Part shown: in pieces, positions 1 to 21,038 of the stretch | Position numbering within the stretch: the stretch's first letter is position 1 | How the letters are laid out: every line of letters begins with the position of its first letter | Assembly: GCA_019686135.1 (NCBI GenBank) | Contig: JADGHL010000009.1 | Span: 1-64,000 of the forward strand | Reading direction: 5' to 3' | DNA: 64,000 nt | From: Myxococcaceae bacterium | GTDB lineage: Bacteria > Myxococcota > Myxococcia > Myxococcales > Myxococcaceae | Made by a program: the position numbers and the translations under genes | Notes under the pieces: model-generated | The model's input: the letters and a program-made list of their open reading frames with translations, nothing else | Database searches by the model: none | What the model was told of the DNA's origin: nothing

Positions 1-1152
1 CCCGCGGTTGTGGCACACCCGCTCCCCCACCCCCCCCCGCCCCCCCCGCCCGCCCACGGCCCAGATGGATTTGCGGAGGCCGAGCGTGGCGGTGTTCAGC
101 TTGCCGTGCGTCTGCATGGACCGGCGCACGGCTTCGCGAACCGCGCCGCGAAGAACCGGCGAACGCGGCAAGGCGGCAGCGACATCACCCTTCAGCTCAT
201 GGTGCTGCGAGAGGCGACGGACCGCCGTTTCGGGCATCAGCTCGAACCTGTCGCCGAGGAAGCGTCCCGCGCTCTGAGCCAGGTGGCGACCGACGATGTA
301 GGGCGCCAACTCGAGCCGATCCTTCGTGGAGTACGCCTGGTCGCGCGCGAGTCGCCGCAGGTCCCGCCCCGCATCCCTCAGCGCCTGAACCGCCAGAGCC
401 CGTGCGCCGGGCAGGTCGCCCGGGTCGCAGTACTCGCGCCGGAAACGGGCTTCATCGAACGCGCGCCGCAACACGGTCGCGAGGGAGTAGTCATGGCTGT
501 GCCGGACCGCCGCATTCGGGGCATAGGCCTTGATGTAGCCCGCCTCGAGGATGTCCGACGCCCACAGCTGATCCTCCATGAACTCGACGTCCCGATAGGG
601 GATGCGTTCCCAGACGGAACGCCGCAGCGCCGCGTTGTTGTCTGAGAAGAACTGGTACCAGCCCCGTCGCGACTCGTACTCCGCCCAGCCTTCGAGGCCG
701 GGGGCGATCCGGTAGAGCGTCACCTGCTCTCCGAACGCCCGGAAATGGGCGTCCAGCATGTACGCCTCACTGGGGTTGCAGCCGGGGTGGGGGAGGTGGC
801 GGCCGAACACGCCTGCCACCTTGTCGTTGTCCCGCATCGGCTGGATGAGCTCCGCCAGCCACCGGTCGTCGTTCGGGACCGCGTCCTGCGTGAGCATCGC
901 CACGAACTCGGAGCGGCAGTGCGCGATGGCGAAGTTCCGGGTGCGCCCGTGACCGAACTCCGCAGGTGGAATCTGGAGGAGGCGCGCGCCCGACGATTGG
1001 ATGATGGACAGGGACCCGTCCGTGGAGCCGCTGTCGACGCACAGCACCTCGAAGTCGAAATCCGCCTTCTGAGAAAACACCGACGCGAGGCATTCCCCGA
1101 GGCGGCTTTCGCCGTTCTTCACGGGGATCACTACGGTGACCAGTGGCGCCAT
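1..1152 (-). CDS. GT2 glycosyltransferase, rhamnosyltransferase-like (3' end outside window)
   Basis: Open on the minus strand from ATG 1152 to the window edge with no stop, so the C-terminus is missing. The start MAPLVTVVIPVKNGE is a typical GT-A beta strand. It is followed by the nucleotide-binding DSGSTDG (residues 40-46), FGHGRTRN (66-73) and TQDA (88-91), a combination typical of rhamnosyltransferase-like family 2 enzymes. These transfer a sugar from dTDP-rhamnose to a lipid-linked glycan at the cytoplasmic face. That fits the rfbBDAC operon about 9 kb away. It diverges from the phosphoglycerol-transferase-like gene with a 117-base gap. The last codons before the edge (about 1-56) run through a C-rich tract that gives a glycine/arginine-rich, non-family-like tail, so the frame there is doubtful. 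The acceptor is unknown. Confidence 0.85.
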   Translation of the reverse strand, partial: MAPLVTVVIPVKNGESRLGECLASVFSQKADFDFEVLCVDSGSTDGSLSIIQSSGARLLQIPPAEFGHGRTRNFAIAHCRSEFVAMLTQDAVPNDDRWLAELIQPMRDNDKVAGVFGRHLPHPGCNPSEAYMLDAHFRAFGEQVTLYRIAPGLEGWAEYESRRGWYQFFSDNNAALRRSVWERIPYRDVEFMEDQLWASDILEAGYIKAYAPNAAVRHSHDYSLATVLRRAFDEARFRREYCDPGDLPGARALAVQALRDAGRDLRRLARDQAYSTKDRLELAPYIVGRHLAQSAGRFLGDRFELMPETAVRRLSQHHELKGDVAAALPRSPVLRGAVREAVRRSMQTHGKLNTATLGLRKSIWAVGGRGGRGGVGERVCHNRG

Positions 1153-1269: not shown

Positions 1270-3351
1270 TTGAATGCTGCGGAGCGCCGTCGTACAAGCC
1301 CGCGTTCCTTCGATCGGGCCGAGAGGCATCCTTCATTGATTCTGTCGTTCGCGTGGGCGCCGCGGCCTGGGCCGTTTCTGCAGCTCCTGTTTCTCCTGGG
1401 TGTGACGCTCTGTGCGATTGTCCTTTGGAGGCGGGGGCGTGCCGAAGGGTCGCTGCCGGGACGGCTCCTGTGGGCAGCGGCGCCGGTTCTGGTCGCCTGG
1501 GCCGGCGCGGTGGTGCTCTCCCTGTCCGCCTCCGGGAATCTGGGCGTGGCGTATGCGTTCGAGAACAACGTTTTCCTGGTTTCGAGCGCACTGCTCGTGA
1601 CGCTGCCTCTGATGGCGCTTCCGACCCGCTTCCGGGCCGTGGGTGGCTTTTTCCTGCTGTTCGCCGCCGCGCTCGTGGCGCTCGGCGACGCCATCTACAT
1701 GCGTGCGTTCAGCGGGATTCTTTCGCCGGAGGCTGCTGGCGCCGCCGGCCAGGTGCCGGACGTCCTGCGCAGCATCGCGGCGTTGCTCCGCATCGAGGAC
1801 CTCTGGATGTTGGTGGTACCCGCTTCAACGCTCGCGTTCGCGGTGGTGATGTGGAAACTGCCCATGGTTCCACCTCCACCATGGGGGTGGAGACTTCTAG
1901 CAGCCGTTCTCATGATGGCCTGCGCCACTCCGGCGCTCTGGCGCCTCGGGGGAGAAGAAACATCCGTCCGCGGTCTCCCGCTGGCGCTCTCGGACGCTGA
2001 GCTGATCCGGGCCAACGGGCTCCTGGGCGCACACCTTCTGGAACTCACACGTTCCGTCAGAGATCGACTCGGGTCGAAGTGGTCTTCTGAAGCCGCTGTG
2101 CGCGCGCGGGCTTTTTTCGACCGGCCACGCGCCGCGCCCGACCCGGAATGGTTCGGCGCTGCGAAGGGCGACAATCTGGTCCTCGTCCAGGTCGAGGCGC
2201 TGCAGGACTGGGTCATCGGCCTTGTCATCAACGGACAGCCGGTGACGCCCTTCCTCGACTCGATGCGCAGCCGGGCGATCGAGTTCACGCAGATCTACGA
2301 TCAGACGAAGGACGGGAGGACCTCCGATGCGGAGTTCGCCGTCCTCAACTCACTCCACCCATTGGAGAGAGGATCGGTGGCATTCCGCCGCGCCGGCAAC
2401 CACTTCCTCGCGCTTCCCTCCATTCTCAAATCGCATGGGTATGTCACTGTTTCCGCGCACGCCAACGAACCGGGTTTCTGGAACCGCGGCGTGCTCCACC
2501 CGAAGTATGGTTTTGACCGGCTCCTGTTCCGAGGCGAGTTGGGGACGGGCCAGATCCTCGGGTGGGGGCTGCCCGACGCGGATCTGTTCGAACGCGTGAC
2601 GGCGACATTGCCGACGCAGCAGCCGTTTCTGGCCTTTCTCGTCACCGTCACGTCTCACCATCCTTTCGACTACCTCCCCAGGGAGATGAAGGAGCTCTCC
2701 CTGGGGGAACTGGAAGGAACCCCCGTCGGCAACTACCTGCAGAGCGTGCGCTACGTCGACGGAGCGTTGCGACATCTGTTCGAGCGGCTCGAACAGCGTG
2801 GTCTGCTCGACTCGACGGTGGTGGCGATCTACGGGGACCACGACGCAGGGTTCGAGTACACCGACCTGCTTCGGAAGGTGGCCGGGATTTCTGCATGGAC
2901 GGACGCCACCCGCATCCAATTTGACCGGGTTCCTTTCATGATCTGGCTGCCCAAAGCTGCCCGGACAGGCCGGTTCGATCAGCCGGGCGGTCACGTGGAC
3001 ATTGCGCCGACGCTGCTTCGCCTGCTGGGAATCCCGACGCCACGTTGCTTCGCGGGCAGCCCGCTTCCGTCGCGGACCCCGGCGCCCGTGTTTTCGCCGA
3101 TGGGCGCCGCCATCCGCGGCGATCGGATGGCGATTCTGGATGCCCGCCGCTGTGTTCATCTGCCCGACGGGGAGCCAGCGAGCGGCGCCTGCGATTTCGT
3201 GGAAGCGGCCGAGGCTCCGGTCGTTGCGAGCCGATACCTGACGGAGCAGGACGCGTATCAGGTGCTTGGCTGCGACGACGCTCCGACAGGTCAGCCGCCG
3301 GCGACCTGGGCTTCCGGGGAGGATCAGGTCGATGTCACAGCAACGCGCTGA
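1270..3351 (+). CDS. LtaS-family membrane phosphoglycerol transferase/sulfatase-like protein
   Basis: A 693-residue protein with several N-terminal membrane segments (about 36-55, 65-90, 100-118, 124-143, 178-196, 207-225) and a large C-terminal alkaline-phosphatase-superfamily domain (about 300-610). Expected LtaS-type catalytic features are visible: a metal-binding Glu in VQVEALQ (E309), the nucleophile Thr in DGRTSDAEF (T351), FWNR (403-406) and YGDHDAG (521-527). Family members move glycerol phosphate from phosphatidylglycerol onto a glycan or lipid outside the membrane. The gene opens an operon with two GT2 genes; the next start overlaps its end by 20 bases. It probably decorates the polysaccharide made here, but phosphoethanolamine transfer or sulfatase activity cannot be excluded. 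The N-terminus before about residue 20 is hydrophilic, so the true start may lie slightly downstream. Confidence 0.85.
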   Translation: MNAAERRRTSPRSFDRAERHPSLILSFAWAPRPGPFLQLLFLLGVTLCAIVLWRRGRAEGSLPGRLLWAAAPVLVAWAGAVVLSLSASGNLGVAYAFENNVFLVSSALLVTLPLMALPTRFRAVGGFFLLFAAALVALGDAIYMRAFSGILSPEAAGAAGQVPDVLRSIAALLRIEDLWMLVVPASTLAFAVVMWKLPMVPPPPWGWRLLAAVLMMACATPALWRLGGEETSVRGLPLALSDAELIRANGLLGAHLLELTRSVRDRLGSKWSSEAAVRARAFFDRPRAAPDPEWFGAAKGDNLVLVQVEALQDWVIGLVINGQPVTPFLDSMRSRAIEFTQIYDQTKDGRTSDAEFAVLNSLHPLERGSVAFRRAGNHFLALPSILKSHGYVTVSAHANEPGFWNRGVLHPKYGFDRLLFRGELGTGQILGWGLPDADLFERVTATLPTQQPFLAFLVTVTSHHPFDYLPREMKELSLGELEGTPVGNYLQSVRYVDGALRHLFERLEQRGLLDSTVVAIYGDHDAGFEYTDLLRKVAGISAWTDATRIQFDRVPFMIWLPKAARTGRFDQPGGHVDIAPTLLRLLGIPTPRCFAGSPLPSRTPAPVFSPMGAAIRGDRMAILDARRCVHLPDGEPASGACDFVEAAEAPVVASRYLTEQDAYQVLGCDDAPTGQPPATWASGEDQVDVTATR

Positions 3352-4180
3352 CCATTCGCTGCCGATCCTTCGAGCAGGCATCGTCCTCTACCGGAACGAT
3401 CCCGAAGAGCTCCGGCGCCTGTTCGTCTCGCTCGAGCTCAACCGGTCGTCTCCGGGCGGGCCGCAATTCGACGTCGCGGTCATCGACAACTCGCCCGACA
3501 CGGAACTCGCGGGGACGGTCGCCGCCCTGGCTCCGCACGTGCGCTACACACATGCCGGGGCCAACCTCGGCTTCGGTGCCGGCCACAACCGGTTGATGCG
3601 GGCCGCGTTCGCCGAGCCCTCCAACCAGTACTATGTCTGCGTCAACCCGGACGCGCTCCTCCATCCGGACTGCCTTCGGGAGCTGGTCGCGGCCGCTCGA
3701 CGCCAGCGCACGCCCGGTCTGGTCGAAGCGCTTCAATTCCCCGACGAACATCCCAAGACCTACGACCCGACCACGCACGAGACCCCCTGGTGCAGCGGGT
3801 GCGTGCTGCTCATCACTCGCGAGGCCTTCGAACGACTGCAGGGGTTCGACGAGAACTTCTTCATGTATTGCGAAGACGTGGATCTCTCCTGGAGGGCACG
3901 GGGCGCGGGTTTCAACACCTCCATCGCCCCGAGAGCGTTGGCGCATCACCACGTGGGACATCGGGCGCCGGATCCGCGGACCCAGCGCGAGATGCTGAAG
4001 AGCGGCATCTATCTGGCCAGGAAATTCGCCAACCCTCGGGCGGAGGAGCGCTGGATGGCCGAGTACAGAGCGCTTGGAGGCGACGCCGCGGAAATTCCGG
4101 TAGCCCCCACGCTTCCGCCACAGGTGCTCCGCTACGCGGACTTCGATCACATGTTCTACATGGCGGAGGGACGCTGGTGA
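3332..4180 (+). CDS. GT2 family glycosyltransferase
   Basis: A 282-residue single-domain GT-A enzyme. The start MSQQRADHS is chosen because GGAGGATC lies just upstream and the frame upstream codes for nothing family-like. Core motifs are GIVLYRND near the N-terminus, DNSPDTELA, ANLGFGAGHN, the metal site VNPDALLHPD, WCSGCVLLITREAF and FFMYCEDVDLSWRARG, the last being the usual acceptor/base region of WbbL-type rhamnosyl and related transferases. It lies in an operon between the LtaS-like gene and another GT2 gene. Its first 20 bases overlap the former, and its stop overlaps the next start as GTGA, so translation is probably coupled. It probably adds one sugar, perhaps rhamnose, to the surface glycan; the exact donor and acceptor cannot be read from the sequence. 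Confidence 0.88.
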   Translation: MSQQRADHSLPILRAGIVLYRNDPEELRRLFVSLELNRSSPGGPQFDVAVIDNSPDTELAGTVAALAPHVRYTHAGANLGFGAGHNRLMRAAFAEPSNQYYVCVNPDALLHPDCLRELVAAARRQRTPGLVEALQFPDEHPKTYDPTTHETPWCSGCVLLITREAFERLQGFDENFFMYCEDVDLSWRARGAGFNTSIAPRALAHHHVGHRAPDPRTQREMLKSGIYLARKFANPRAEERWMAEYRALGGDAAEIPVAPTLPPQVLRYADFDHMFYMAEGRW

Positions 4181-5799
4181 GCACCGGCAAGGCCAGAGTC
4201 GTGCCGATCCGGACGCCCCAGGGCCCGGTCGCTCCGCTCCGGTGGTGCGAGACCGAACAGGGCCGTCAGGTCCTCTCGCTTCTGCGCGCAGGCGCATCCG
4301 TCGCGGTGGTGGGGCGTGAGCCCGAGTTCGTCGAGGGGCTCAACGCCGAAGGGTTCACGGTGCTCCACCTCGAAGCGGCCGACCTCGTGAGCGCTGCCGG
4401 CGGAACGCAGGAGACCGATGCCATCCTCGCGCTTCGTCGCGCGGAGCCGGACGCCGTCCTGCTCGGAGAAGGCTGGTTGGAACAGCCGGACCCCCGGCGC
4501 ATCCTGGCGGTTTGCGCCGAGGCAGCGCCCCGGGCGGATCTGGCCGTGATGTTCTGGAATGCGGCTTCGGCGTCCCTGCTCCTGCAGGCGCTCGCCGGGC
4601 AGCCGATCCCGCGCGCCCTCCAGGAAGCGGAAGTCCGGGAGTGGCTGCTCGAGCACGGGTACGTCGTGCGCCACCAATGGAGCCTCCCGGCGACACGTCC
4701 TCCGCGCGCGCTCCCGCGGGACACCGAGAACGCGCTCCGTTGCCTCTTCGAGCAACTCCAACCCCGGTCGTCGTCCGATCGGCTGGTCTATTGGGCGCGC
4801 CGGTCTGCGGATGCACGTCCGAGCCCCCGGATGGATCTGGTCCCGGGCCTGCTGAGCGTCGTGATGCGCCATCACTCGCTCGAGCGCCTTTCGTATCTGG
4901 ATCAGGCCGTCTTCTCGCTGGCGTGTCAGCAGTACGCGCCCCTGGAGATCGTCGTCGCCACGCAGTGTCCGGATCCCTCGGCCGCGGCGGAGTTGTCCCG
5001 CGTCCTCGAACGCCATCGACCCATCGGCGGCTACACGTTCCAGGTGGTCAGCCAGCCCTCCGACAGGGACATCCGGGCGCGGCTGCTCAACCTGGGAATC
5101 GCTTCGGCGCGCGGTCAATATCTGGCATTTCTCGACGATGACGACGTGGTGTACCCGCACCACTATCGTCGCTTGATCGACGCGCTCCGCTCGTCGGATG
5201 CGGCCTGGGCTTTCGCCGAGGCGCGACGGGCGTTCTATTTCAAGGACGCGCAGGGCGATTTGTATTGCCGGACCAAGGATCGCCCCTACAACGTCGAATA
5301 CAGTCGCGCGCGGCTCCTCGAGAGCAACTTCATTCCCTGCCACGCCTACGTGGTGGACCGGTTCCGGGTGGGCAGCTTCCCCCTGGCATTCGCCGAGGAG
5401 GCGAACCGGAACGAGGACTACATCCTGCTCCTCCGGCTGTGCGCGCTGTTTCAGCCAATCCAGCTCCGTGGACCGTTCGGGTGCGAGCACCGGCTCCGTG
5501 AGGACGGGTCCAACTCCATGGTGGTCGACAGCGAGCCGCCTGCGATCCGCCGCAGAAAGGAACGGGAGTGGTTGGTGTCGCTGGCCATGATGGAGGCGTA
5601 CAAGCGAAAGACCTTCCTGCTGCTGGCCGCGAACGAAATGGAGGATGAGGTCCACGCCGCGGTCGCGCGGCTGCCACCTCCGGCCGAGTCCCCCCTGCGC
5701 TATCAGCTTGCGGAACGCCTCAATCAGAGGCTGAAGGAGATCTCCCCCCGGACGCACCGGCTGCTGAAGAAGGGGCTCTCATTCCTCGTCGGCCGCTGA
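4177..5799 (+). CDS. GT2 family glycosyltransferase with N-terminal extension
   Basis: A 540-residue protein starting at a GTG that overlaps the preceding stop (GTGA). About 225 N-terminal residues carry no motif I recognise: a Rossmann-like stretch (SVAVVGREPEFVEGL) followed by a charged region. The GT-A domain follows at about 226-440, with LLSVVMRHHSLERLSYLDQA, the DDDD metal site in YLAFLDDDDVVYPHHY, and a later CEHRLREDGSNSM. The C-terminus is a basic helical tail. The gene is last in the plus-strand operon and ends one base before the convergent tandem-GT2 gene. It resembles SpsA/WsbD-like transferases that use a nucleotide sugar to extend a surface glycan. The N-terminal part may bind a partner or be a degenerate sugar-nucleotide domain. 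Confidence 0.82.
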   Translation: MSTGKARVVPIRTPQGPVAPLRWCETEQGRQVLSLLRAGASVAVVGREPEFVEGLNAEGFTVLHLEAADLVSAAGGTQETDAILALRRAEPDAVLLGEGWLEQPDPRRILAVCAEAAPRADLAVMFWNAASASLLLQALAGQPIPRALQEAEVREWLLEHGYVVRHQWSLPATRPPRALPRDTENALRCLFEQLQPRSSSDRLVYWARRSADARPSPRMDLVPGLLSVVMRHHSLERLSYLDQAVFSLACQQYAPLEIVVATQCPDPSAAAELSRVLERHRPIGGYTFQVVSQPSDRDIRARLLNLGIASARGQYLAFLDDDDVVYPHHYRRLIDALRSSDAAWAFAEARRAFYFKDAQGDLYCRTKDRPYNVEYSRARLLESNFIPCHAYVVDRFRVGSFPLAFAEEANRNEDYILLLRLCALFQPIQLRGPFGCEHRLREDGSNSMVVDSEPPAIRRRKEREWLVSLAMMEAYKRKTFLLLAANEMEDEVHAAVARLPPPAESPLRYQLAERLNQRLKEISPRTHRLLKKGLSFLVGR

Positions 5800-5800
5800 G

Positions 5801-8317
5801 TCACGCGTTCTGCAGGTGTGCGGCGGCGAAGGCCGACAGCGGCTCCAGCGCCAGCTCCAGCGCGTTCGCGACCTTCTCCGTGCGCAGGTCCGCCTGGGTG
5901 GTCGAGAGCGTGAGGTTCGGGTTGTAGAAGGGGTCGCCGCGCTCGAGGATGTCGCGGTACGCGACCACCGACTCCCAGTGGTCGTCCTCCGGAATGGGCG
6001 TGGTGCGGCGGCTGGCGGACTCGTGGTGATAGAGCCAGGTCCCGGCGGTGTAGACGACGCGCTTGCCGCGGCGGACGGCGCGGAGGCCGAGATCGACGTC
6101 GCTGCCGCAGACGCGGAAGCGTTCGTCGAATCCGCCCAGCGCTTCGAACTCTTCTCGGCGCAGCAGCACGCACGCACTGGTGACGGCGAGGTAGTTGCGG
6201 TTCCAGTCGGCGTGCCCGAACGGAGTCCAGCGCTGGTCGTTCGGGAAACGCCAGAACGGGTGGCCGGCGTACCCGCACAGGCCCACGACCACGCCGGCGT
6301 GCTGGATGCTGCCGTCCGGGAAGAGGAGCTTGGGGCCCACCATCGCCACCTCGGGGCGCTGGGCGTGGCCGATCAGCTCCTCCAGCCAGAAGGGATCGAC
6401 CACCTCCATGTCGTTGTTGAGGAACAACAGCAGCTCGCCCTTCGCCTGCTTCGCCGCCCAGTTGTTGAGCCGCGGGTAGTGGAACGGGTGGTTCCACTCC
6501 AGCCGCCGGACGCGCGGGTCGGTCAGCCTGTCGAGGTACGCGAACGTCTTCGGATCCCGGCTCTCGTTCGAAACGAGCAGGACCTCGAACTTCCGGTAGC
6601 GCGTCTTCTCCAGAAGGGACGGCATCAGCCGCTCGAGAAGATCGGGCCGGTCCTTGAAGGGGATGATGATCGACACCAGCGGCTCGCCGCGCACCGGGTA
6701 GCGGATGCGGTAGTTCGTGGGCGCGGGATCGGTCACCTCGCCGGACTCGCCCTTGCGTGAAAGGTGCTCCTGCAGCGCGCGGATGCCGGCACGCGAGGCG
6801 GCCTTCAGCTTCTCATCGTCGTGCGACAGCGAAATCGGCGAGGTGCGCCAGTGGTAGAGGATCTTCGGCACGTGGGCGACGCGCTCGCTCTGCTCCGACA
6901 GGCGGAGGAGGAAGTCGAAGTCCTGCGATCCTTCGAACCCTTCGCGGATCCGGAGCGCCTTCACCAGATCGGCCCGCGCCACGACGAAGTGGCAGATGTA
7001 GTTCACCGACCGGAGCAGGTCCGGCGAGTAGTCCGGCTTGTAGAACGGGTTCAGCCGCACGCCATCGTTGGTGATCCGATCCTCGTCCGAGTAGAGCCAG
7101 TCCACCCCGGGTTCGGTGGCGATGCGCAGCGCCATCTCGGACAGCGCGTGCGGCGCCAGCACGTCGTCGTGATCCAGGAACGCGATCCACTCGCCGCGCG
7201 CGAGCTCGATCGCCGCGTTGGTGGCGCGGGCGATGCCGCCGTTCCGCTCCAGCCGCGTCCAGCGGATGCGCGCGTCCTTCTTCGCGTACGCCTCCAGCAC
7301 CTCGCGGACCCGGCGGCTCTTCGAGCCGTCGTCCACCACGCACAGCTCCCAGCGGTCGTACAGCTGCGCACGGACCGACTCCACGCACTGCCGGAGGATC
7401 GGCTCGGGTGTCTCCCACGCGGGGACCACGAGGCTGATGAGCGGCCGCGACGTCAACGTCTTCAGCGCGGCGGCGGAGGCGGCGATCTCCTGCGGCTCCC
7501 TCGCCTCGTAGAACGCGCGGTACTCGGCCTGCGTGGGCGGGACCACCGGGGGCCGGCCGTGCAGAAGGTCGGACAACACGAGCATCACCTCGGTGTTGAA
7601 CCGGTTCTGCTTGCGGAAGATCTCCCGGAGAAGCGGCGCCAGCGCGCGCGTCCACGGCGCGCGGATCTCCAGCGGATCGCACAGCGCCGCAAGGTCGCCG
7701 ATCCGCCGGTTGGCCTCTTCGATGGGAGGAATCTCGCCCCTGGCAGCCAGCGTCGCGAGCTCGATCGCGTGCTCGTTCCACTTCTTCTGCCGGTCGAGGA
7801 TTGGCCGCCACAGGGGATGCGAGGTGCGAAGCCACGCCGCTTTGGCGCGGAGGACGACTTTCGCGGCGATGCCGCGCAGGTGCGTGGTGGGCGACCACTC
7901 CGCCGGATCCGCCAGCGGGCGCAGCCTCCACTCCACATTCGGCGAATCCTCCCGGAGGATCGCCTCCAGCACCTCCAGCAGCGCGTGGTTGAACGCACAT
8001 TGGGTGCGCAGCACCTCGCGCTCCAGCGGTGCCACTGCGGCGACCGTCAGACGCTTGGCGCCGGTGATCAGCTCGCCCCACTTCTTGCGGTGGGACGGCG
8101 GAACCTCGAAGCGGAGCACGTCCGCCGCCTGCCGCGCGGCCTCGAGCGGGCTGCGCGCGCGCGGAGCCACCGGCGGTGGCCGCCGCTTCACCAGCTCGCG
8201 GTAGAGCGCCGGGAGGTCTGTGCTGTTGCTGCGCCGCGCGAGGGTGATCGCCTCGATCAAATCGGCGGTGGAGAGGTCGGACGGGGAGGGGGCCTGTTCG
8301 AGCGACGCTGCGCGCAT
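5801..8317 (-). CDS. Bifunctional glycosyltransferase with two GT2 domains
   Basis: An 838-residue protein. The ATG at 8317 is preferred because GGAG lies just upstream and the previous stop is 2 bases before it. Residues 1-290 are helical and include two copies of a short (R/K)xQxxFN helix motif (VLRTQCAFNHALLEVL and EIFRKQNRFNTEVMLVL). The first GT-A domain (about 292-440) has LISLVVPAWETPE, VVDDGS and FLDHDDVL. The second (about 546-760) has LVSIIIPFKDRPDLL, LFLNNDMEVVDPFW, TSACVLLRREEFE and a DVDLGLRAVRRG acceptor region. Tandem GT2 proteins of this type add two linkages in O-antigen or capsule assembly. It is third in the minus-strand operon after a GT4 and a small helical protein and probably acts at the inner membrane face. 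Confidence 0.87.
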   Translation of the reverse strand: MRAASLEQAPSPSDLSTADLIEAITLARRSNSTDLPALYRELVKRRPPPVAPRARSPLEAARQAADVLRFEVPPSHRKKWGELITGAKRLTVAAVAPLEREVLRTQCAFNHALLEVLEAILREDSPNVEWRLRPLADPAEWSPTTHLRGIAAKVVLRAKAAWLRTSHPLWRPILDRQKKWNEHAIELATLAARGEIPPIEEANRRIGDLAALCDPLEIRAPWTRALAPLLREIFRKQNRFNTEVMLVLSDLLHGRPPVVPPTQAEYRAFYEAREPQEIAASAAALKTLTSRPLISLVVPAWETPEPILRQCVESVRAQLYDRWELCVVDDGSKSRRVREVLEAYAKKDARIRWTRLERNGGIARATNAAIELARGEWIAFLDHDDVLAPHALSEMALRIATEPGVDWLYSDEDRITNDGVRLNPFYKPDYSPDLLRSVNYICHFVVARADLVKALRIREGFEGSQDFDFLLRLSEQSERVAHVPKILYHWRTSPISLSHDDEKLKAASRAGIRALQEHLSRKGESGEVTDPAPTNYRIRYPVRGEPLVSIIIPFKDRPDLLERLMPSLLEKTRYRKFEVLLVSNESRDPKTFAYLDRLTDPRVRRLEWNHPFHYPRLNNWAAKQAKGELLLFLNNDMEVVDPFWLEELIGHAQRPEVAMVGPKLLFPDGSIQHAGVVVGLCGYAGHPFWRFPNDQRWTPFGHADWNRNYLAVTSACVLLRREEFEALGGFDERFRVCGSDVDLGLRAVRRGKRVVYTAGTWLYHHESASRRTTPIPEDDHWESVVAYRDILERGDPFYNPNLTLSTTQADLRTEKVANALELALEPLSAFAAAHLQNA

Positions 8318-8319
8318 CT

Positions 8320-8817
8320 CTACTCCAATCGCCTCGTCTGTCTTTGGGCCGGATCCGCGGCCGCCTCGAGCGCCTCGAGCCGCCGCTCCACTTCCTTTCT
8401 CCACATCGCCTGGGTCTGCGCGTTCACCTTGACCTGCTCGTACATGAGCGCCAGCGAGCTGAGGATCGACTGGTTGAACTCGACCTGCCGGCGCAGCACC
8501 TCGTTGATGAAGGGCTGGAATAGGAACCGGAAGCTGCGCTTGGCAGCGACCAGCACCGGCCCGATCAGCGGGCGGTGCGAGGTGGCCGGATCGGCGTAGC
8601 GGGAGTCGGCGCGCAGCCGCGGCTCCTCCAGGATCGGTGGCCAGCGGCCCGGGCCATCGTCGTGCGCAGACGGCGGGGCGATCCGATCGAGCCGTTCGCG
8701 GAGCTCGCGCTCGACGATCTCAGTGGGGTCCGGGATCTCGTTGGCCAGCTTCGCCAGATCCTCCGGCGGCGGCGTGTCGGTCGCCAGCTCCGAGGCGTTC
8801 ACGACGCTTCGCTTCAT
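8320..8817 (-). CDS. Small helical protein of the glycosyltransferase operon, unknown function
   Basis: A 165-residue protein that overlaps the end of the GT4 gene by 4 bases (ATGA) and stops 2 bases before the tandem-GT2 gene, so all three are probably coupled. It has no catalytic motif. Residues about 1-85 are acidic and proline-containing; about 86-150 are strongly helical and amphipathic, ending in a coiled-coil-like ERRLEALEA. The stretch INEVLRRQVEFNQSILSSLA matches the (R/K)xQxxFN module seen twice in the helical part of the next gene, and similar stretches are known in proteins associated with polysaccharide transferases and methyltransferases. A scaffold or chain-length role is possible but unproven; it could also be a separated domain of a larger transferase. 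Confidence 0.75.
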   Translation of the reverse strand: MKRSVVNASELATDTPPPEDLAKLANEIPDPTEIVERELRERLDRIAPPSAHDDGPGRWPPILEEPRLRADSRYADPATSHRPLIGPVLVAAKRSFRFLFQPFINEVLRRQVEFNQSILSSLALMYEQVKVNAQTQAMWRKEVERRLEALEAAADPAQRQTRRLE

Positions 8818-9902
8818 CCTGTGCTCCGCATCGCGCCGGACATCAGCGCGTCGAAAAAGGCGTCCCGCGTGTTCGCGGGATCGAACGCCCGCGCGCGCAG
8901 CCGGCTGCGTTCGATCACCGCGCGGCGGACCTCCGGCCGCCGCTGCAGCACGGCGATCAGCCGCGCGTACACGATCGGATCGGCGCTCCGGCAGACCCAG
9001 CCTGCGCCGCCGAGCGTCTCCGCCACCGCCCCCGCGTCATATGCGATCACCGGAACGCCCCGATACAGCGCTTCGATCAACGGCACGCCGAATCCTTCGT
9101 GCGCGCTCATCGACAGATAGACGGAGGCCGTCGCAAAGCACGCGGCGAGCTGCGCGTCGCTCACGCGTCCGAGGATGTGGACACGCTCAGGCCCGAGCGC
9201 GTCGCGCACGCCCCAGATGAAGGCGCCGTACGGGTGCTCCCGGTTCAGCTCGCCGGCGAGGACGAGGCGGCTTTTCGGGTCGAACAACCGCTGGTACGCG
9301 GTGAAGACGCGGAGCACCTCTTCGATCCGCTTGTTGGGCGCGCCCCGGCCCACGAACAGCACGTTGGTCATGCCGTCGTCGAGCTCGCTTCGCAGCGCTT
9401 CGTCCGGCCGGGTGTCGAGCGCGGCGAACTCGAGCGGGAAGGGGACCACCTTCACCTCCGCGAACCCTGCGGCGTCCAGGTCCTTCGCCGAGAACCGCGA
9501 GAACGTCAGTGCCAGAGGTGCGATCGGCGCGAGCTCGCGCAGCTCCTCCAGCCCGGCCGCGCAGGCCGCCGCCAGTGGCGGATCGTACGGCGCGATCAAC
9601 GCCGGCGGCGTGACGTTGTGGAAGATGACCGCGACCGATGCTTTGCGCGCGACCCTTCGGAGCAGCGGCACCAGACGGGACTGGATGCTGTGGTGGACGA
9701 GCACGAGATCGCCGCGGGCGACGTGGTCGGGGAGCTCGTCGACCGATATCGACTCTCCGCGCGAGCGTTCGTCGGTGCGTCCGCTGAAGACTTCGCTTTC
9801 GTGCCCGGCCTCGCGGAACCAGCGCCGGAGCAGGCGGACCTGGTTCCCGACGGCGTCGCCCCACGAGAGCGTCGGTGTGACCTGATGGATGGCCGAAGGC
9901 AC
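8814..9902 (-). CDS. GT4 family glycosyltransferase
   Basis: A 362-residue GT-B fold enzyme. The N-terminal acceptor half begins with MPSAIHQVTPTLSWGDAVGN. The C-terminal donor half carries NVLFVGRGAPNKRIEEVLRV, a phosphate-binding strand and Lys, and the family signature SAHEGFGVPLIEALYRGVPV (E-x7-E type), which binds the nucleotide-sugar diphosphate. It is the first gene of the minus-strand operon and diverges from rfbB across 124 bases. GT4 enzymes of this shape in polysaccharide loci transfer mannose, rhamnose or glucose with retention; the donor cannot be told. The stop codon overlaps the start of the small helical protein (ATGA). Confidence 0.88.
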   Translation of the reverse strand: MPSAIHQVTPTLSWGDAVGNQVRLLRRWFREAGHESEVFSGRTDERSRGESISVDELPDHVARGDLVLVHHSIQSRLVPLLRRVARKASVAVIFHNVTPPALIAPYDPPLAAACAAGLEELRELAPIAPLALTFSRFSAKDLDAAGFAEVKVVPFPLEFAALDTRPDEALRSELDDGMTNVLFVGRGAPNKRIEEVLRVFTAYQRLFDPKSRLVLAGELNREHPYGAFIWGVRDALGPERVHILGRVSDAQLAACFATASVYLSMSAHEGFGVPLIEALYRGVPVIAYDAGAVAETLGGAGWVCRSADPIVYARLIAVLQRRPEVRRAVIERSRLRARAFDPANTRDAFFDALMSGAMRSTG

Positions 9903-10026
9903 GCGGGGCTTCTAGCGGGGGACGGGCCCAGGGTCCACCTTCGGGGAGCGACGGCCGCGGAAGGGAAGCGGGCCGGCGCGCTCTTCCTTCCGGGCGAGCG
10001 TGCATGGGGGTATAGAGCACCGGCAC

Positions 10027-11049
10027 ATGAACGTCCTCGTCACCGGCGGCTGTGGCTTCATCGGTTCCAACCTCGTCAGGTATCTGCGCCGGGAGCGCCC
10101 GTCGTGGAAGGTGGTCAACCTCGACAAGCTCACCTACGCGGGCAACCTGGAGAACCTCCAGGACCTCGAGGGCGACCCGAACCACGTCTTCGTCAAGGGT
10201 GACATCGGCAACCGCGAGCTTTTGGATCTGATCATCCGCCAGCACGGGATCGAGGCGATCTTCCACCTCGCCGCGGAGTCGCACGTCGACCGGTCGATCC
10301 TCGGGCCGGAGGTGTTCATCCAGACCAACGTGCTGGGCACCCACGTGCTTCTGGAGGCGGCGCGCGCGCACCAGCTCAAGCGCTTTCTGATGGTGTCCAC
10401 CGACGAGGTCTACGGCTCGCTCGGCCCCACCGGCGCGTTCACCGAGTCCTCGCCGCTTCGGCCCTCCTCGCCGTACTCGGCGTCGAAGACCTCCGCGGAT
10501 CTGGTGACGCTCGCGTACCACCACACCTTCGGGATGGACGTCGTCGTCACCCGCTGCTCGAACAACTACGGGCCGTACCAGTTCCCGGAGAAGTTGATTC
10601 CCCTGATGATCGCCAACGCGCTCGACGACAAGCCGCTGCCGGTCTACGGCGACGGCGGCAACGTCCGCGACTGGCTGCACGTCGAGGACCACTGCGCGGC
10701 GCTGGTCCTCGCGATGGAGAAGGGCAAATCCGGCGAGGTCTACAACATCGGCGGCGGCGCGGAGCGGAAGAACATCGAGATCGTCAAGGCGATCCTCGCG
10801 ATGCTCGGCAAGCCGGAGTCGCTCATCCGCTTCGTCCAGGATCGCCCGGGGCACGATCGCCGCTACGCGATCGACCCGTCGAAGATCCGTTCCGAGCTGG
10901 GCTGGAAGCAGGCCCGCACCTTCGAGGACGGGCTCTCCCAGACCATCAAGTGGTACGTCGACCACCGCTCCTGGTGGGAGCGCGTCACCTCCGGCGCCTA
11001 CCGGCAGTACTTCGAGACGCAGTACGCGAACCGGCTGAAGGCAGCATGA
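10027..11049 (+). CDS. rfbB: dTDP-glucose 4,6-dehydratase
   Basis: A 340-residue extended SDR enzyme that converts dTDP-glucose to dTDP-4-keto-6-deoxyglucose, the second step of dTDP-L-rhamnose synthesis, in the cytoplasm. Visible features are the NAD-binding GGCGFIG (7-13), the family catalytic triplet STDEVYG (T125, D126, E127), the YSASK pair (Y150, K154), and [17 protein letters not shown]. Length is normal for RmlB. The start was taken at MNVLVTGG, which places the Rossmann strand at the N-terminus; there is no clear Shine-Dalgarno, and TATAGA lies 10 bases before the ATG. First gene of rfbBDAC; its stop overlaps the rfbD start (ATGA). Confidence 0.96.
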
Positions 11050-11960
11050 AGATCCTCGTCACCGGCTCCAACGGCCTCGTGGGCTCCCGGCTGGCGCGGG
11101 TGCTCGTGGCACAAGGCCACGAGGTGCTCGGCGCCTCTCGCGGCACGAAGACGGCGGCGGGCGCATACGCGTATGTCGGGCTCGAGCTCTCCGATGCCAT
11201 GGCGGTCGACCGCGCGGTGGACGCGTTCGCGCCGGAGGTGATCATCAACCCGGCGTCGATGACGGAGGTCGACGCCTGCGAGAAGGATCCGGAGCGCGCG
11301 TACCGCGCGAACGTGACGGCGGTGGCCAACCTGGCGATCGCCGCGCGGCGGGTGGGCGCTCACCTTTTGCAGGTGTCCACCGACTACGTGTTCGACGGCG
11401 ATCACGGCCCCTACGGTGAGGACGACGTGCCGAACCCGCGCGGCGTCTACGCCATCACCAAGCACATGGGCGAGGAGGCGGTGCGCGCGCTGGCGAAGCC
11501 GGGCGCGTGGACCATCGCGCGCACCGCGGTCGTCTACGGGTGGCCGGCGGCGGCGCGGCCGAACTTCGGCGCGTGGCTGGTGAACGCGCTCTGTGCGAAG
11601 CAGACGGTGAAGCTGTTCGTCGATCAGATCGTCACGCCGTCGCTCGCGGACAACGTGGCGGAGATGCTGGCGGAGCTGGGCACGCGGCGGCTGGCCGGGA
11701 TCTTCCACGTGTGCGGCGCCACCGCGGTGGACCGGTATACCTTCGGGCAGAAGCTGTGCGGCGTGTTCGGGTTCGACCGGAGCCTGCTCGTCCCGTCGAA
11801 GCTGGCGGACCTGAAGCTCGCTTCGCCCCGGCCGCTGCACTCGGCGCTTCGCACGGAGAAGATCCGCGAGGCGCTCAAGGTGCAGCCGCTTTCGCTGGAC
11901 GAACAGCTCCGGCGCTTCCATTCGGCGTGGTGCGAGGGCCGGGGGAGCGCGGCGGCATGA
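11046..11960 (+). CDS. rfbD: dTDP-4-dehydrorhamnose reductase
   Basis: A 304-residue SDR enzyme that reduces dTDP-4-keto-L-rhamnose to dTDP-L-rhamnose with NAD(P)H, the last step of the pathway. The N-terminus [20 protein letters not shown] is the dinucleotide-binding strand. Further features are [23 protein letters not shown] with the catalytic Thr, and YAITKHMGE (the YxxxK pair). Length matches RmlD. The start overlaps the rfbB stop by 4 bases (ATGA), implying coupling. A 55-base gap separates it from rfbA. Confidence 0.94.
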
Positions 11961-12015: not shown

Positions 12016-12897
12016 ATGAAAGGCATCGTCCTCGCCGGCGGATCGGGCACGCGGCTCTATCCGCTGACCCGCGTCGTCTCCAAGCAGCTGTTGCCCGTCT
12101 ACGACAAGCCGATGGTCTACTACCCGATCTCGGCGCTGATGCTGGCGGGGATCCGCGAGCTGCTCATCATCTCCACGCCCACGGACCTGCCGCGCTTTCG
12201 CGAGCTTCTGGACGACGGGTCCCAGTGGGGCATCCGCTTCGAATACGCGGAGCAGCCCAGGCCGGAGGGCCTGGCCCAGGCGTTCATCATCGGCCGTAAG
12301 TTCGTGGGCTCCTCGTCCAGCGCGCTGGTGCTCGGCGACAACATCTTCTACGGCCACGGGTTCTCCGAGCAGGTCCAGCGCGCCGCGAAGCAGACCTCCG
12401 GGGCCACGGTGTTCGGCTACTACGTCAAGGATCCGGAGCGCTACGGCGTCGTCGAGCTGGATGCACAGCAGCGGCCCGTCTCCATCGAGGAGAAGCCGAA
12501 GCAGCCGAAGTCGAACTACGCGGTCACCGGGCTCTACTTCTACGACAACGCGGTGCTGGACATCGCGGCCAACCTCAAGCCGTCCGCGCGCGGCGAGCTG
12601 GAGATCACCGACGTCAACCGCGAGTACCTGAGGCGCGGCCAGCTCCGCGTGGAGCTGATGGGCCGTGGTTACGCGTGGCTGGACACCGGCACCCACGCCT
12701 CGCTCCAGCAGGCCTCGCAGTTCATCGAGATCATCGAGCAGCGGCAGGGGCTCAAGGTCGCCTGCTTGGAGGAGATCGCCTTCCGCATGGGCTACATCGA
12801 CGCCGAGCAGGTGCTCCGCCTCGCCCACCCGATGCGCAACAACGACTACGGCCGCTACCTGATCGACCTGGTCGAGAACCGCGGCGCGGTCCGATGA
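12016..12897 (+). CDS. rfbA: Glucose-1-phosphate thymidylyltransferase
   Basis: A 293-residue nucleotidyltransferase making dTDP-glucose from dTTP and glucose 1-phosphate, the first committed step toward dTDP-rhamnose. The N-terminal signature [14 protein letters not shown] with [13 protein letters not shown] (nucleotide binding and catalytic Lys) is complete, and [13 protein letters not shown] (metal-binding Asp) and the conserved [13 protein letters not shown] are present. Length is that of RmlA. It has no strong Shine-Dalgarno; TAGAGC lies 9 bases before the ATG, similar to the sequence before rfbB, so an internal start of transcription is possible. Its stop overlaps the rfbC start. Confidence 0.96.
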
Positions 12898-13451
12898 ACG
12901 TCCGGCCCACCCGCATCCCCGAGGTATGGATCGTCGAACCGAAGGTCTTCGGCGACGCGCGAGGACTCTTCCTTGAGACCTTCCAGGCCGAACGCTACGC
13001 GTCCTTCGGCATCACCGGGCCGTTCGTCCAGGACAACCTCTCGCGGTCGGTCAAGGGCACGCTCCGCGGGCTCCACTTCCAGGAGCCGCGCCCGCAGGGA
13101 AAGCTGGTCTACGTGGTGCGCGGCGCGGTGCTGGACGTCGCGGTGGACATCCGCCGGGGCTCGCCGACGTTCGGTCAGTGGGTGGCCGTGGAGCTCTCGG
13201 AGGAGAACCACCGCCAGCTCTGGGTGCCGCCGGGGTTCGCGCACGGGTTCTGCGTGCTCAGCGACTCCGCCGATTTCGCCTACAAGTGTACGGACTATTA
13301 TCAGCCGCAGTTCGACGCCGGGATTCGATGGGATGATCCCGACCTCGGCATTGATTGGCCGGTGAGGGACCCCATCATCTCGGAGAAGGACTCGAAGCTG
13401 CCCCGCCTCAAGGACGCCCCGCGCCTGCCGAACTGGAACGGGAATCGTTGA
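12894..13451 (+). CDS. rfbC: dTDP-4-dehydrorhamnose 3,5-epimerase
   Basis: A 185-residue cupin-fold enzyme that epimerises dTDP-4-keto-6-deoxyglucose at C3 and C5. It starts at the ATGA overlap with rfbA. Family features: [17 protein letters not shown] near the N-terminus, [19 protein letters not shown] (catalytic His), [20 protein letters not shown] and [15 protein letters not shown], with the Tyr-rich YKCTDYYQP. Length is normal for RmlC. It completes the four-gene rhamnose operon, in the order B-D-A-C. Confidence 0.95.
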
Positions 13452-14023: not shown

Positions 14024-14852
14024 ATGTGCACGCTCGTCGTCGCCACCGGGCAGTTCGCCGGGTTTCCCGTCGTCGTCGCCGGCCACCCCCCCCACGCCCG
14101 GGCCCCCCCCCCCGCCCGCGCCCCCCCGGGGCCCGGGGGGGGTGCGCCCGGCGCGCCGCCCCCCACCCCCCCCCGAGGCCGTGGACCGCCCGGCGTCCGG
14201 ACCGCGCGTGTGGTCGTCCGGACGGATTCCGTTCGTCGCGCCCGTGGACGATCGCGCGGGCGGGACCTGGTTCGGGATCAACGCGCGCGGGCTCGTCGCC
14301 GGGATCACCAACCGCTTCATGGCGCCCCGGTACGCGGATCGGCGGTCACGCGGCACGGTGGTGACCGACGCGCTCGGGTATCCGGACGTCGAGACGCTCC
14401 ACGCGGCGCTTTCGCGGCTGGATCCGGGCAGCGTCAACGCCTTCCACCTTCTGTATGCGGATCCGTCCGGCGCGGCCGGTGTCACGTGGACCGACGGCGC
14501 CCACCTCTGCCAGGAGCGCCTCCCGTCCGGCGTGCACATCCTCACCGAGCGCAGCCTGGGAGCGGCCGAGGCGGTCCCCGCGCGCGTGACGTTCGTCCGT
14601 TCGCGCTGGCCCGCGCCGCGCGCCGACGGTACGCCCGACGCGGAGGCGCTGATGCGCCTGCTCTCGCACCACGACGAGGCCGATCCGCTCGCCGCGACCT
14701 GCGTGCATGTGCCGGCGTTCAATTACGGCACGCGCTCATCGACGGTGCTGCTGGTCGCGGACGATCCCGCCCGCTCGCAGTATTGGGCGGCGGATGACAG
14801 CCCGTGTCGGGCGCCGTTCGTCGACCGCTCCGCGCTGCTTTCGTCGCTCTGA
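14024..14852 (+). pseudogene. NRDE/TANGO2-family protein, reading frame broken by a C/G tract
   Basis: Two frames together make one NRDE (TANGO2) family protein. The first, from ATG 14024, gives MCTLVVATGQFAGFPVVVAG; a Cys immediately after Met is usual in this family, and that sets the start. The second, from about 14175 to 14852, gives VDRPASGP, then GGTWFGINARGLVAGITNR and a normal C-terminus. Between them, where the family has its NRDE motif, is about 90 bases of almost pure C and G (14084-14174) that shifts the frame and encodes only Pro, Gly and Arg. Outside the tract there are no stops and the family sequence is intact, so this is more likely a sequence or assembly fault than decay. 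The family is linked to Golgi organisation and metabolism in eukaryotes; its bacterial role is unknown. Confidence 0.72.
14084..14174. repeat. C/G homopolymer tract inside the NRDE-family gene
   Basis: Runs of 7-11 C and G in nearly unbroken succession, unlike the codon usage on either side. The flanks read continuously into the NRDE family only if the tract is replaced by a few codons. A similar C-rich stretch lies at about 25-56. Probably an artefact of sequencing or gap filling. Confidence 0.7.
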
Positions 14853-15028
14853 CCGCGCCGCCCCGCTTCGGGCACGGCGCGGCACTCTGCCCGCACCGCA
14901 GGCGTCGAATTCCCCATTTGAAGCGAGTAAACCGGACCTCACCCGATGCCGTTCGCCCTCGATGGAGGCGTGCGCGGCTCAGGGGCACAGAACTTGAACT
15001 TGCAGCCCCCGCCTGCCGGAGGTCCCAC

Positions 15029-18000
15029 GTGCGTACCCCTCGCCTCGCGCTTTCTGTTGCGCTCGCTTTCTCGGCGCTCGCGACCAGCCGCTGCACCTGC
15101 GGCAAAGAGAAGAGCGACTCGAACATCACCGTCGAACCGGTCACCCGGGTCGAGGAACGCAAGCCGCTCGACCTCGAGCCGCTCCCGGAGGCGCCGCCGG
15201 TGGTGGTGGCTCCGGAGTCGCTGCCCGGTGCAGACGGCACGTTGGCGGTGGTCACCGCGCGGCCCCAGGGCCCGATGGAGGGCGAGGTCCGTCCCACCGT
15301 CACCTTCTCCAAACCGGTGAAGTCGCTCGCCGACATTGAGTCCCAGCGCGAGGAGGACAAGGCGCAGCCGTTCGCGACGATCGAACCGAAGCTGGAGGGC
15401 GAGTGGCGCTGGCTCGGCTCCGCCTCCGCGGAGTTCGTTCCCAAAGGGCTGGTCCCGTACTCGACCGAATTCCACGTCACCGTCCACAAGGGCCTGCGCG
15501 CGATCGACGGCAGCGAGCTCAAGGAGGACTACCGCTTCACCTTCTCCACACCCCTCCCGTTGCTGCAGGACGTCTCGCCCCATCAGGGCTTCACGTGGAT
15601 GAAGCCGGACGACACGGTCAAGCTTCTCTTCAACCAGCCGGTGAAGGACCTCGCGCAGCACGCGCGCTTCCTCGTCGAAGGTGAGGCGCAGCCGCGCCCG
15701 GTGACCGTCGTCAAGGCGGTGTCGATCGCCGAGGAGCGCCGCGCGGCGGAGGAGAAGTCGGGCCGCAGGCGCTATGAGCGGATGGACTTCGAAGCGCGCG
15801 GCTTCAAGAACCAGCAGACGCGCTACGAGCTCTCCGCGGGGGCGCCGCTGCCGCTCAACAGGTCCATCACGCTGCAGATCGACGCGGACCTTTCGGGCGA
15901 GCAGGGCCCGCTGACGATGGGCGAGGCGAAGCGGCTGGAGTGGCACACCTATGGACCGCTCCGGCTCACCGCGGTGCGCATGTGCACGCACGAATATCCG
16001 TGCCCCCACGGCCCGCTGATGATCCTCAGCACCAACCAGATCGACCTCGAGTCGCTCAAGGGCCGAGTGAAGGTCACCCCGAAGGTTGAGCTGGACTGGG
16101 ACCACGCCCGCGCCGACGCGCCGCACGCGTATGACGGCAGTTCGGACTTTAGCCCTTATGTGTCCATCCCCGGCAACTTCAAGCCGGGCACCGCGTACAC
16201 CCTCCACATCGATCCCGGCGTGAAGGACGTGTTCGGCCAGACCTGGGCCCAGCCGATCGACGCCAGCGACCGCACGGACGATCTGGAGCCGGCGCTCTAC
16301 ACCGGCGGGCAGAACGCGCTGATCGAGACCGCCACCGGGACGAAGGTGCCGCTGGAGGTGGTCAACCTGCGCTCGCTCGACGTCCGGCTCTGGAACGTCA
16401 GCCAAGTGGAGGCCGCCTCGTTGCTCGCGCAGTCCTGGTACGACCAGGACAACCCGATCGCGCGGCCGCCCGACTACGAGGCGCACGAGGAGCTCCACTA
16501 CCCGCCGAACGAGACGGTGATCCACCGGATCGACCTCGCGAAGGTGTTCAAGGGATCGAAGACCGGGATGGCGCTGGTGCAGGTGAACTCGCCGGATCTG
16601 CGCTGGCGGCCGCGCAACGGCTTCCGGATGCTGGTGCAGGTCACCGACCTCGCGGTGCACTTCATGCTCGCGCCGTCGAAGTCGCTCGTCTGGGTGACCG
16701 GGCTCTCCGACGCGAAGCCGGTGGCCAACGCGCAGGTGCAGATCGTCGACCCGGACGGGCAAGTCCGCTGGAGCGGGACTACCAACGCCGACGGGATCGC
16801 CGACGTACCGGGCGCGGTGAAGCTGGGGCTCTCCGGCGACTACGCCTGGGACACGCCGTTTGCCATGGCCACGGCCTCGATCAACGGCGACACCGGGCTC
16901 TCCTCCAGCCAGTGGAGTGACGGGCTTTCGCCCTGGGACTTCAACGTCCAGCAGGGTTGGGAGGGTGAGCTGCCGCAGTCGTTGGGCTTTATCTTCTCCG
17001 AGCGCGGCATCTACCGCCCGGGCGAGAGGGTCTACTTCAAGGGGCTCGCGCGCTACCGGTCGGTCGGCGCGCTGAAGGCGCCCGCCGCGGGCTCGAAGCT
17101 CACGCTGGCCGTGACGGATTCGCGCGGCAACGACGCGAAGAAGCTGGACGTGACGGTGACGAAGTACGGCACCTTCACCGCCACCTTCGACATCCCGAAG
17201 GACGCGCCCACGGGCGCTTGGAGCGTCGTCGCGTCGGGGAACGCGCCGGGCGGGGAGATCGACTTCAATGGCACCTTCCGCGTGGAGGAGTACCGGGCCC
17301 CGCAGTTCAAGGTCGACGTGACGTCCGACAAGACTGACCTCGTCGCCAACGACCCGCTCAACGCCACGGTGTACGCGCGCTACCTGTTCGGCGGCGCGAT
17401 GAACAACGCGAAGGTGCGCTGGTCGGTCAGCCGCACCTCGACCTCGTTCAACCCGCCGGGTGCGGACAGCTTCACCTTCGCGCAAGAGACTTGGTGGTGG
17501 GACGACAACGCGCCCGAGGACTCGTCCGGCTTCTTCGCCAGCGGCGAGGGCGCGGTGGACGAGAAGGGCACGCTCGCCGTCGAGCCCGGGATCGTCGAGA
17601 CGCCGGCGCAGAAGACCTGGACGTACACGGTCGAGGCGGAGGTGGAGGACGTCAACCGCCAGGTGGTGGCGAACCGCACGCAGGTCACGGTGCACCCGGC
17701 CTCCTGGTACGTGGGGATGCGCGGGCCGGTCGGGTTCAAGAAGGCGGGCGAGGAGGTGCCGATCGACCTCATCGTCACCGACGTGAAGGGCAAGCGCCTG
17801 GGCGGAAAGAACGTCCACGTCGAGGTGGTGTGCCGCAGCTGGAAGTCGGTGCGTCAGAAGGACGCGGGCGGGGGCTACACCACGGTGAGCGAACCGGTGG
17901 AGGAGAAAATCGCCACCTGTGACGTGGCCTCGAACGAGCGGGAGCCGGTGCAGTGCAGGTTCACCGCGAAGGCGTCGGGCTTTTTCATCGCCCGCGCCAC

Positions 18001-21022: not shown

Positions 21023-21038
21023 CGCGGGAGCCGGGATC

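Follow-up and report, generated by a model that had tools for sequence, protein, structure and literature searches.

A putative LtaS-type glycerol-phosphate transferase encoded in a rhamnose polysaccharide locus of a myxobacterium

The first 64,000 nucleotides of contig JADGHL010000009.1 from a Myxococcaceae bacterium (assembly GCA_019686135.1, forward strand; here the window) hold an ltaS-like gene next to glycosyltransferase genes of a rhamnose polysaccharide locus. At slightly better than even confidence, we propose that its product is a periplasmic LtaS-type glycerol-phosphate (GroP) transferase that was co-opted for the decoration of an exported rhamnose O-antigen. The family and fold of the enzyme, its catalytic and GroP-binding residues, the missing second GroP site and its membership of a Wzm/Wzt rhamnose locus were all calculated. 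A preliminary description of this DNA had spoken of an LtaS-type phosphoglycerol transferase; the LtaS-type fold and residues agree with that name, but the polymerisation site is missing, and from its sequence we read the protein as a GroP transferase of the LtaS type without a chain-extension site, not as a lipoteichoic acid (LTA) synthase.

Positions 1336 to 3351, forward strand: ltaS-like gene, membrane helices followed by a periplasmic alkaline-phosphatase-fold domain (Pfam, NCBIfam, PDB, hydropathy and AlphaFold2)

The ltaS-like frame is open on the forward strand from a TTG at 1270 to 3351 (693 codons without a stop). The TTG at 1336 is the likelier start, since a ribosome-site-like GAGAGG at 1321-1326 lies 9 nt upstream of it and none was found upstream of the TTG at 1270 on reading the sequence; residue numbers are counted from TTG 1270. 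The product matches Pfam Sulfatase at 9.3e-41 (residues 302-588) and NCBIfam LtaS at 1.4e-68 (232 bits), and in a single-sequence phmmer search of the PDB the matches are led by LtaS2, LtaS and LtaP at 1.2e-51 to 2e-45, GacH being absent among the 23 matches at E 0.1. Hydropathy gives five membrane stretches N-terminal to the catalytic domain and the AlphaFold2 model adds a sixth helix at 205-227; with six helices, the positive loops agree with an N-terminus outside and would place the catalytic domain in the periplasm. LtaS has five N-terminal membrane helices, and the window enzyme probably has one more. Scans for tRNA genes and Rfam families gave no result.

By sequence profile and by structural model the ltaS product groups with the LtaS of Gram-positive bacteria, far from GacH, OpgB, EptA and sulfatases, and thus on the side that the preliminary description had expected. 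The profile of a 27-row alignment, run against the PDB, finds LtaS2 at 7.8e-117, LtaS at 2.9e-109 and LtaP at 1.8e-89, with Vibrio VP1736 (6.3e-36), GacH (7.5e-12) and YejM (6.4e-5) as remoter matches. A catalytic-domain profile built from the same rows scores canonical Bacillus-type LtaS at 362-388 bits though these are absent from its rows, OpgB at 39 bits (1.4e-12, a remote yet detectable kinship), YejM at 21, EptA at 14 and EptB at 10. Structure prediction, which the preliminary description had proposed as a means of separating LtaS from EptA-like transferases, points the same way: the AlphaFold2 model (mean predicted local distance difference test score, pLDDT, 82.5; predicted template-modelling score, pTM, 0.84) has LtaS as its best Foldseek match (3.0e-28), and VIA-align superposes it on LtaS (4uor_C) with Z 51.4 and a root-mean-square deviation of 2.1 over 393 residues, as against Z 49.0 for LtaP, 38.9 for VP1736, 29.7 for YejM and 28.3 for GacH. 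Many sulfatases appear among the lower-ranked fold matches. Identities of the sulfatase, EptA and OpgB types were rejected on the profiles, the fold and the catalytic residues. The same genome encodes, on contig C175 (L002, 832-3495), a second Sulfatase-family membrane protein of 887 amino acids, which at 120 bits on the catalytic-domain profile is distant from LtaS.

Two trees were built, and in the first, of 48 rows, the six canonical LtaS rows form a single group (support 100/100); the label canonical was assigned after the motif YGDHxGIS..H had been seen, and solved LtaS chains carry the same motif. The outer-membrane rows are monophyletic in neither tree, with L006, L007 and L129 placed elsewhere and Paenibacillus L185 among the rest, and the pairing of the window protein with L041 (98/86, first tree) was lost after rows were added. 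Both trees omit EptA, EptB, YejM and C92 of the host's own genome, and the second omits L218 and 13 of the 48 rows of the first. The first also joins OpgB to the C175 protein, a grouping that was flagged as a possible long-branch artefact and left unused. Many relatives have an extra N-terminal region that the window protein lacks; in L040 it is Ig-like (N_BRCA1_IG, 1.6e-26), and it can be aligned in L005, L042, L046, L047, L051, L052, L055, L070, L118 and Paenibacillus L053, and is lacking from L006, L007 and L041 in the 27-row alignment.

The residues of the active site can be compared with those of Listeria LtaS, in which Thr307 is the nucleophile, Glu263, Asp481 and His482 bind the metal, His353, Trp360, Arg362 and His422 form the active-site GroP pocket, and Ser486, Asn488 and His489 form a second GroP site whose Ser486 and His489 are required for polymer formation (PMC4192460, excerpt). 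In a 45-row alignment the window protein keeps the nucleophile (T351), the metal residues (E309, D523, H524) and the GroP pocket (H397, W404, R406, H463). None of the Ser, Asn and His of the second site is kept, either in this alignment or in pairwise alignments with PDB sequences. Among the 45 rows, the Ser and His of the second site are kept together by three canonical LtaS rows and by no other, and the Ser without the His by L007, L129 and L186; YGDHxGIS followed by His is present in all six canonical paralogues (L197, L198, L202, L203, L205 and L206). Since the second site is missing, decoration with a single GroP is likelier than polymerisation. In the LtaS-type proteins L224 and L227 a Ser aligns to the catalytic Thr.

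The genomic setting was compared with that in relatives that carry homologues of glycosyltransferase C, encoded two genes downstream of ltaS. Such homologues were matched at 1e-20 in 16 of 60 genomes, the host's own included, and five of the 15 others (L165-L169) were chosen by score, G014 being passed over. Genes were called by a GC-frame script, and neighbours were named by eye unless a Pfam match is given.

Positions 1152 down to 55, reverse strand: gene A, N-terminal GT2 part (Pfam GT2, 1.6e-22), cut by the contig end
Positions 3332 to 4180, forward strand: gene B, GT2 glycosyltransferase of 282 amino acids (Pfam GT2, 6e-9, on the longer open reading frame from 3266)
Positions 4177 to 5799, forward strand: gene C, GT2 glycosyltransferase of 540 amino acids (Pfam GT2, 1.4e-11)
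Positions 5801 to 8404, reverse strand: gene D, double GT2 protein (Pfam, 1.2e-46, two stretches)
Positions 8320 to 8817, reverse strand: gene E, small conserved protein of unknown function, no family match
Positions 8814 to 9902, reverse strand: gene F, GT4 glycosyltransferase (Pfam, 2.7e-22)
Positions 10027 to 11049, forward strand: rfbB, dTDP-glucose 4,6-dehydratase (Pfam GDP_Man_Dehyd/Epimerase; starts MNVLVTGG; exact name by eye)
Positions 11046 to 11960, forward strand: rfbD, dTDP-rhamnose synthesis (57-62% identical genes in L166, L167 and L168; name by eye)
Positions 12016 to 12897, forward strand: rfbA, glucose-1-phosphate thymidylyltransferase (79% identical gene in L166; name by eye)
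Positions 12894 to 13451, forward strand: rfbC, dTDP-rhamnose synthesis (69% identical gene in L166; name by eye)

B begins within ltaS, sharing its last 20 nt, and C begins within the last 4 nt of B; the three genes are therefore read as one operon headed by ltaS, as had been described. The span 1270-5799 given in the preliminary description begins with the ltaS frame, but 5799 is the end of C, and C starts at 4177 rather than at the open reading frame start at 3790. B matches the rhamnosyltransferase family TIGR01556 at 4e-7, far under its cut-off and on the longer frame from 3266, and its six homologues in the relatives' locus show 50-57% identity to it. Residues 1-239 of C have no Pfam match; its LDDDD motif is shared with one of the L165 copies and lost in the other five of the six aligned homologues, which may be inactive. 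The gene facing ltaS, A, had been called rhamnosyltransferase-like, and this holds up on a second contig: the reverse complement of window positions 55-143 recurs without a mismatch as the first 89 nt of contig C98, on which A runs on into a WsaF-type domain (WsaF_C 3e-12, WsaF_N 1.1e-7; WsaF in the PDB 3.2e-6). A GT4 gene and then a Wzt gene with a Wzt_C domain come next on that strand. Window positions 1-54 are C-rich, lie outside the C98 match and spoil the end of A; because the 89-nt identity covers only 55-143, they are probably assembly noise. A Wzm gene (67-68% identical to the Wzm of relative G011) lies on a separate, unlinked contig, C118. The rfbBDAC genes were correctly placed about 7 kb downstream, rfbB beginning 6.7 kb past ltaS, and together with the WsaF-type domain and Wzt they bear out a rhamnose polysaccharide locus in a host of the myxobacterial order. 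Beyond them, window 14804-23513 holds a long gene that is alpha-2-macroglobulin-like by eye and then another long open reading frame; a 2071-aa antisense frame over the former is probably a shadow frame.

The comparison with relatives reveals a conserved core. The genes pgsA, wzm, wzt, B and C are adjacent in all five, with B and C 3' of wzt on the same strand in four; in L165 an inverted C-B pair adjoins wzt and is followed by a second B-C pair. L166 additionally has A, part of D, E, F, rfbA, rfbB, rfbC and rfbD; homologues of D occur in three of the five loci (L165, L166, L169), those of E (48-50% identical) near F in L166, L167 and L168, those of F (51-53%) in the same three, and rfbB is 78-80% identical in L166 and L167. 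B, C, Wzm and Wzt are thus common to the window locus and all five relatives, whereas ltaS, which in the window directly precedes B and heads the B-C pair, has no match at 1e-6 in any of the five loci. The arrangement differs as well, wzt lying in the divergent A operon here and before B-C there. It is unlikely that the contig is a chimaera joined at ltaS, because A, B and C, on both sides of it, have homologues in the relatives' locus. In all five relatives the gene just 5' of wzm-wzt encodes a CDP-alcohol phosphatidyltransferase (Pfam 1.8e-43 in L165) that by eye resembles PgsA and could supply lipid for an LtaS-type enzyme, yet L165-L169 have no ltaS.

By its gene content, the locus is a rhamnose-dependent polysaccharide locus with ABC (ATP-binding cassette) export through Wzm/Wzt. 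Its product is probably the O-antigen of lipopolysaccharide (LPS), since the O-antigen of Myxococcus xanthus is made by an ABC-transporter pathway that the loss of Wzm/Wzt blocks (PMC7484181, excerpt), and ABC-dependent export is what that pathway, the L165-L169 loci and the window locus have in common. We infer donor, acceptor, linkage and timing of the reaction, as well as the single GroP and the O-antigen product, as follows. The enzyme would sit in the inner membrane with its catalytic domain facing the periplasm, and the O-antigen chain would be built in the cytoplasm on undecaprenyl diphosphate and moved, still undecaprenyl-linked, across the membrane by Wzm/Wzt. Thr351 would attack phosphatidylglycerol, diacylglycerol would leave, and a covalent GroP-Thr intermediate would form, from which GroP, one unit rather than a chain, would pass to the rhamnose-containing O-antigen, at a hydroxyl of the chain itself or of a side sugar that B or C has added, before or during ligation of the chain to the lipid A-core of LPS.

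Such a scheme has its parallels. Streptococci export a rhamnan through an ABC transporter, after which SccH or GacH transfers GroP to it from phosphatidylglycerol (PMC11754754, PMC12282279, excerpts). By analogy the window locus has comparable components: a putative GroP transferase gene stands with genes for a predicted ABC-exported rhamnan, but GacH and SccH are only distant kin (7.5e-12 by profile, Z 28) and act on a wall polysaccharide rather than on the predicted LPS O-antigen. The LtaS enzymes of Staphylococcus aureus, Bacillus subtilis and Listeria monocytogenes share with the window enzyme the membrane helices and extracytoplasmic domain, the nucleophile, the metal and first-site GroP residues and the fold (Z about 51); they have the second GroP site that it lacks, and its gene, unlike theirs, lies in a polysaccharide locus of a Gram-negative bacterium. 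Lpt-O of Shigella flexneri adds phosphoethanolamine to O-antigen rhamnose (PMC3458804, excerpt); compared by description only, it and, as predicted, the window enzyme both phospho-decorate O-antigen rhamnose, with phosphoethanolamine in the one case and GroP in the other.

Several observations weigh against recruitment to an O-antigen. The host assembly is fragmented (245 contigs), and the third-position G+C content (GC3) of ltaS (0.78), B (0.81) and C (0.84) is below the 0.87-0.95 of the remaining locus genes, so that the ltaS-B-C operon may have been acquired recently. The 232 bits of the NCBIfam match fall short of the 970-bit cut-off of the LtaS equivalog NF053595. The GroP pocket varies among relatives in the 45-row alignment: twelve outer-membrane rows carry Val or Ile in place of H397, L007 carries Ala in place of R406, and in L225 and L226 these two positions are Cys and Met, respectively; the substrate may therefore differ within the group. 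The gene kind is also scarce, the 27-row profile matching one of 96 genomes of the family at 1e-60, in comparison with seven of 195 genomes of the phylum at 1e-100 (23 at 1e-30) and 12 of 297 genomes of Acidobacteriota, the phylum of L041, at 1e-80; low-ranking copies could be missed in these counts, since at most 11, 5 and 3 candidates were scored per genome in family, phylum and Acidobacteriota, respectively. An initial genome scan with the window protein as sole query had given no result, and of 467 relatives 80 were kept, 65 from Firmicutes and 15 from other groups.

The surroundings of these relatives weigh in the same direction. Seventeen of 20 loci of outer-membrane relatives have no match to the window O-antigen proteins, the remaining three showing a 58-residue GT2 match (L036) or ABC-ATPase matches only (L042, L171), and among 11 loci from Acidobacteriota seven have no match, the other four having an ABC-ATPase (L221), an rfbA-like gene (24% identity, L228) or glycosyltransferases (L225, L226). 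This test detects only homologues of window genes: in L034 it missed a GT4 gene, found by Pfam, that lies about 2 kb away from the LtaS-type gene; flank lengths differ, with the records of L043, L055, L219 and L227 ending near the LtaS-type gene, and L218 is probably the same contig as L064. A locus context shared across LtaS-type relatives was thus rejected, and because most of the Gram-negative relatives examined lie outside polysaccharide loci, the ancestral acceptor may have been something other than O-antigen. In L172 (7800-13107) two LtaS-type genes flank a 507-aa gene without Pfam match, multi-span glycosyltransferase-like by eye.

It is against this background that the alternatives have to be judged. 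OpgB (MdoB, phosphoglycerol transferase I) transfers GroP from phosphatidylglycerol to periplasmic glucans in the periplasm of Escherichia coli. GroP transfer in a Gram-negative periplasm, as predicted for the window enzyme, is common to both, but OpgB scores 39 bits on the catalytic-domain profile, and its acceptor is a glucan. Together with the 17 loci mentioned above, OpgB lends some substance to the idea that the window enzyme is a GroP transferase acting on some other component of the envelope, such as a periplasmic glucan or a glycolipid, and that its position in the locus is incidental. We regard this as doubtful, yet as the alternative to be taken most seriously, since ltaS overlaps B and heads the B-C pair within a conserved locus, and since L226, on a separate branch, is also in a polysaccharide cluster. 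In this acidobacterial locus the LtaS-type gene (9036-10901) is clustered with genes for a Wzx-type flippase, several GT2 enzymes and one GT4 enzyme; that of L225 (8358-10913) lies 3' of genes for a GT2/GT4 protein and for a protein of the PMT type. As L225 and L226 pair with each other (100/100) on a different branch from the window protein and yet stand beside glycan genes, LtaS-type genes seem to have entered glycan loci of such bacteria at least twice; the Cys/Met pocket of both could reflect a change of substrate, donor or product.

A true polymerase that makes a teichoic-acid-like poly-GroP chain on O-antigen or a glycolipid would fit the presence of LtaS polymerases among the closest solved structures, but we consider it unlikely, given that the equivalents of Listeria Ser486, Asn488 and His489 are all missing and that the NF053595 cut-off is far from reached. 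Less likely still is a sulfatase, a phosphatase or a dead paralogue, as the Pfam name Sulfatase and the lower-ranked sulfatase fold matches might suggest. Sulfatases have a Cys/Ser-x-Pro-x-Arg nucleophile motif, whereas the corresponding position here is the Thr of GRTSDAE, and all LtaS catalytic residues are kept in a frame that is open over 693 codons. We would place last, as very improbable, a phosphoethanolamine transferase resembling Shigella Lpt-O: phospho-decoration of O-antigen rhamnose has a precedent there (PMC3458804, excerpt), but the GroP pocket of LtaS (His, Trp, Arg, His) is intact, and EptA and EptB score 14 and 10 bits where canonical LtaS scores at least 362, a comparison that covers EptA and EptB, not Lpt-O.

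Decoration of an exported O-antigen with GroP thus remains the reading that we favour. Whether it would be a novel surface modification, as had been suggested, depends on what is taken to be new: the O-antigen setting and the LtaS-type enzyme are, but GroP transfer in Gram-negatives is already known from OpgB and GroP on rhamnans from GacH, and because of these precedents it is not a new category. Among open-licence papers we found none that deals with an LtaS-type enzyme of Myxococcota or Acidobacteriota or with the transfer of GroP to an O-antigen, nor did we find a function assigned to this LtaS-like kind in Myxococcota, Acidobacteriota and some Firmicutes. We give an even chance to the wider claim that an outer-membrane bacterium puts GroP from phosphatidylglycerol on its LPS O-antigen by means of an LtaS-type enzyme without polymerisation site, independently of GacH, and that this kind of enzyme is patchily distributed in those three groups.

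If so, LPS and teichoic acids would have a modifying chemistry in common, and the decoration of rhamnose glycans with GroP would have arisen at least twice, in convergence with GacH. GroP influences the zinc tolerance of Streptococcus pyogenes and its killing by a phospholipase (PMC12282279, excerpt). On the myxobacterial surface GroP would raise the negative charge, with possible effects on phage adsorption, predation and metal binding. The window locus would then offer a first testable acceptor for LtaS-like enzymes whose genes mostly stand alone in the Gram-negative genomes examined.

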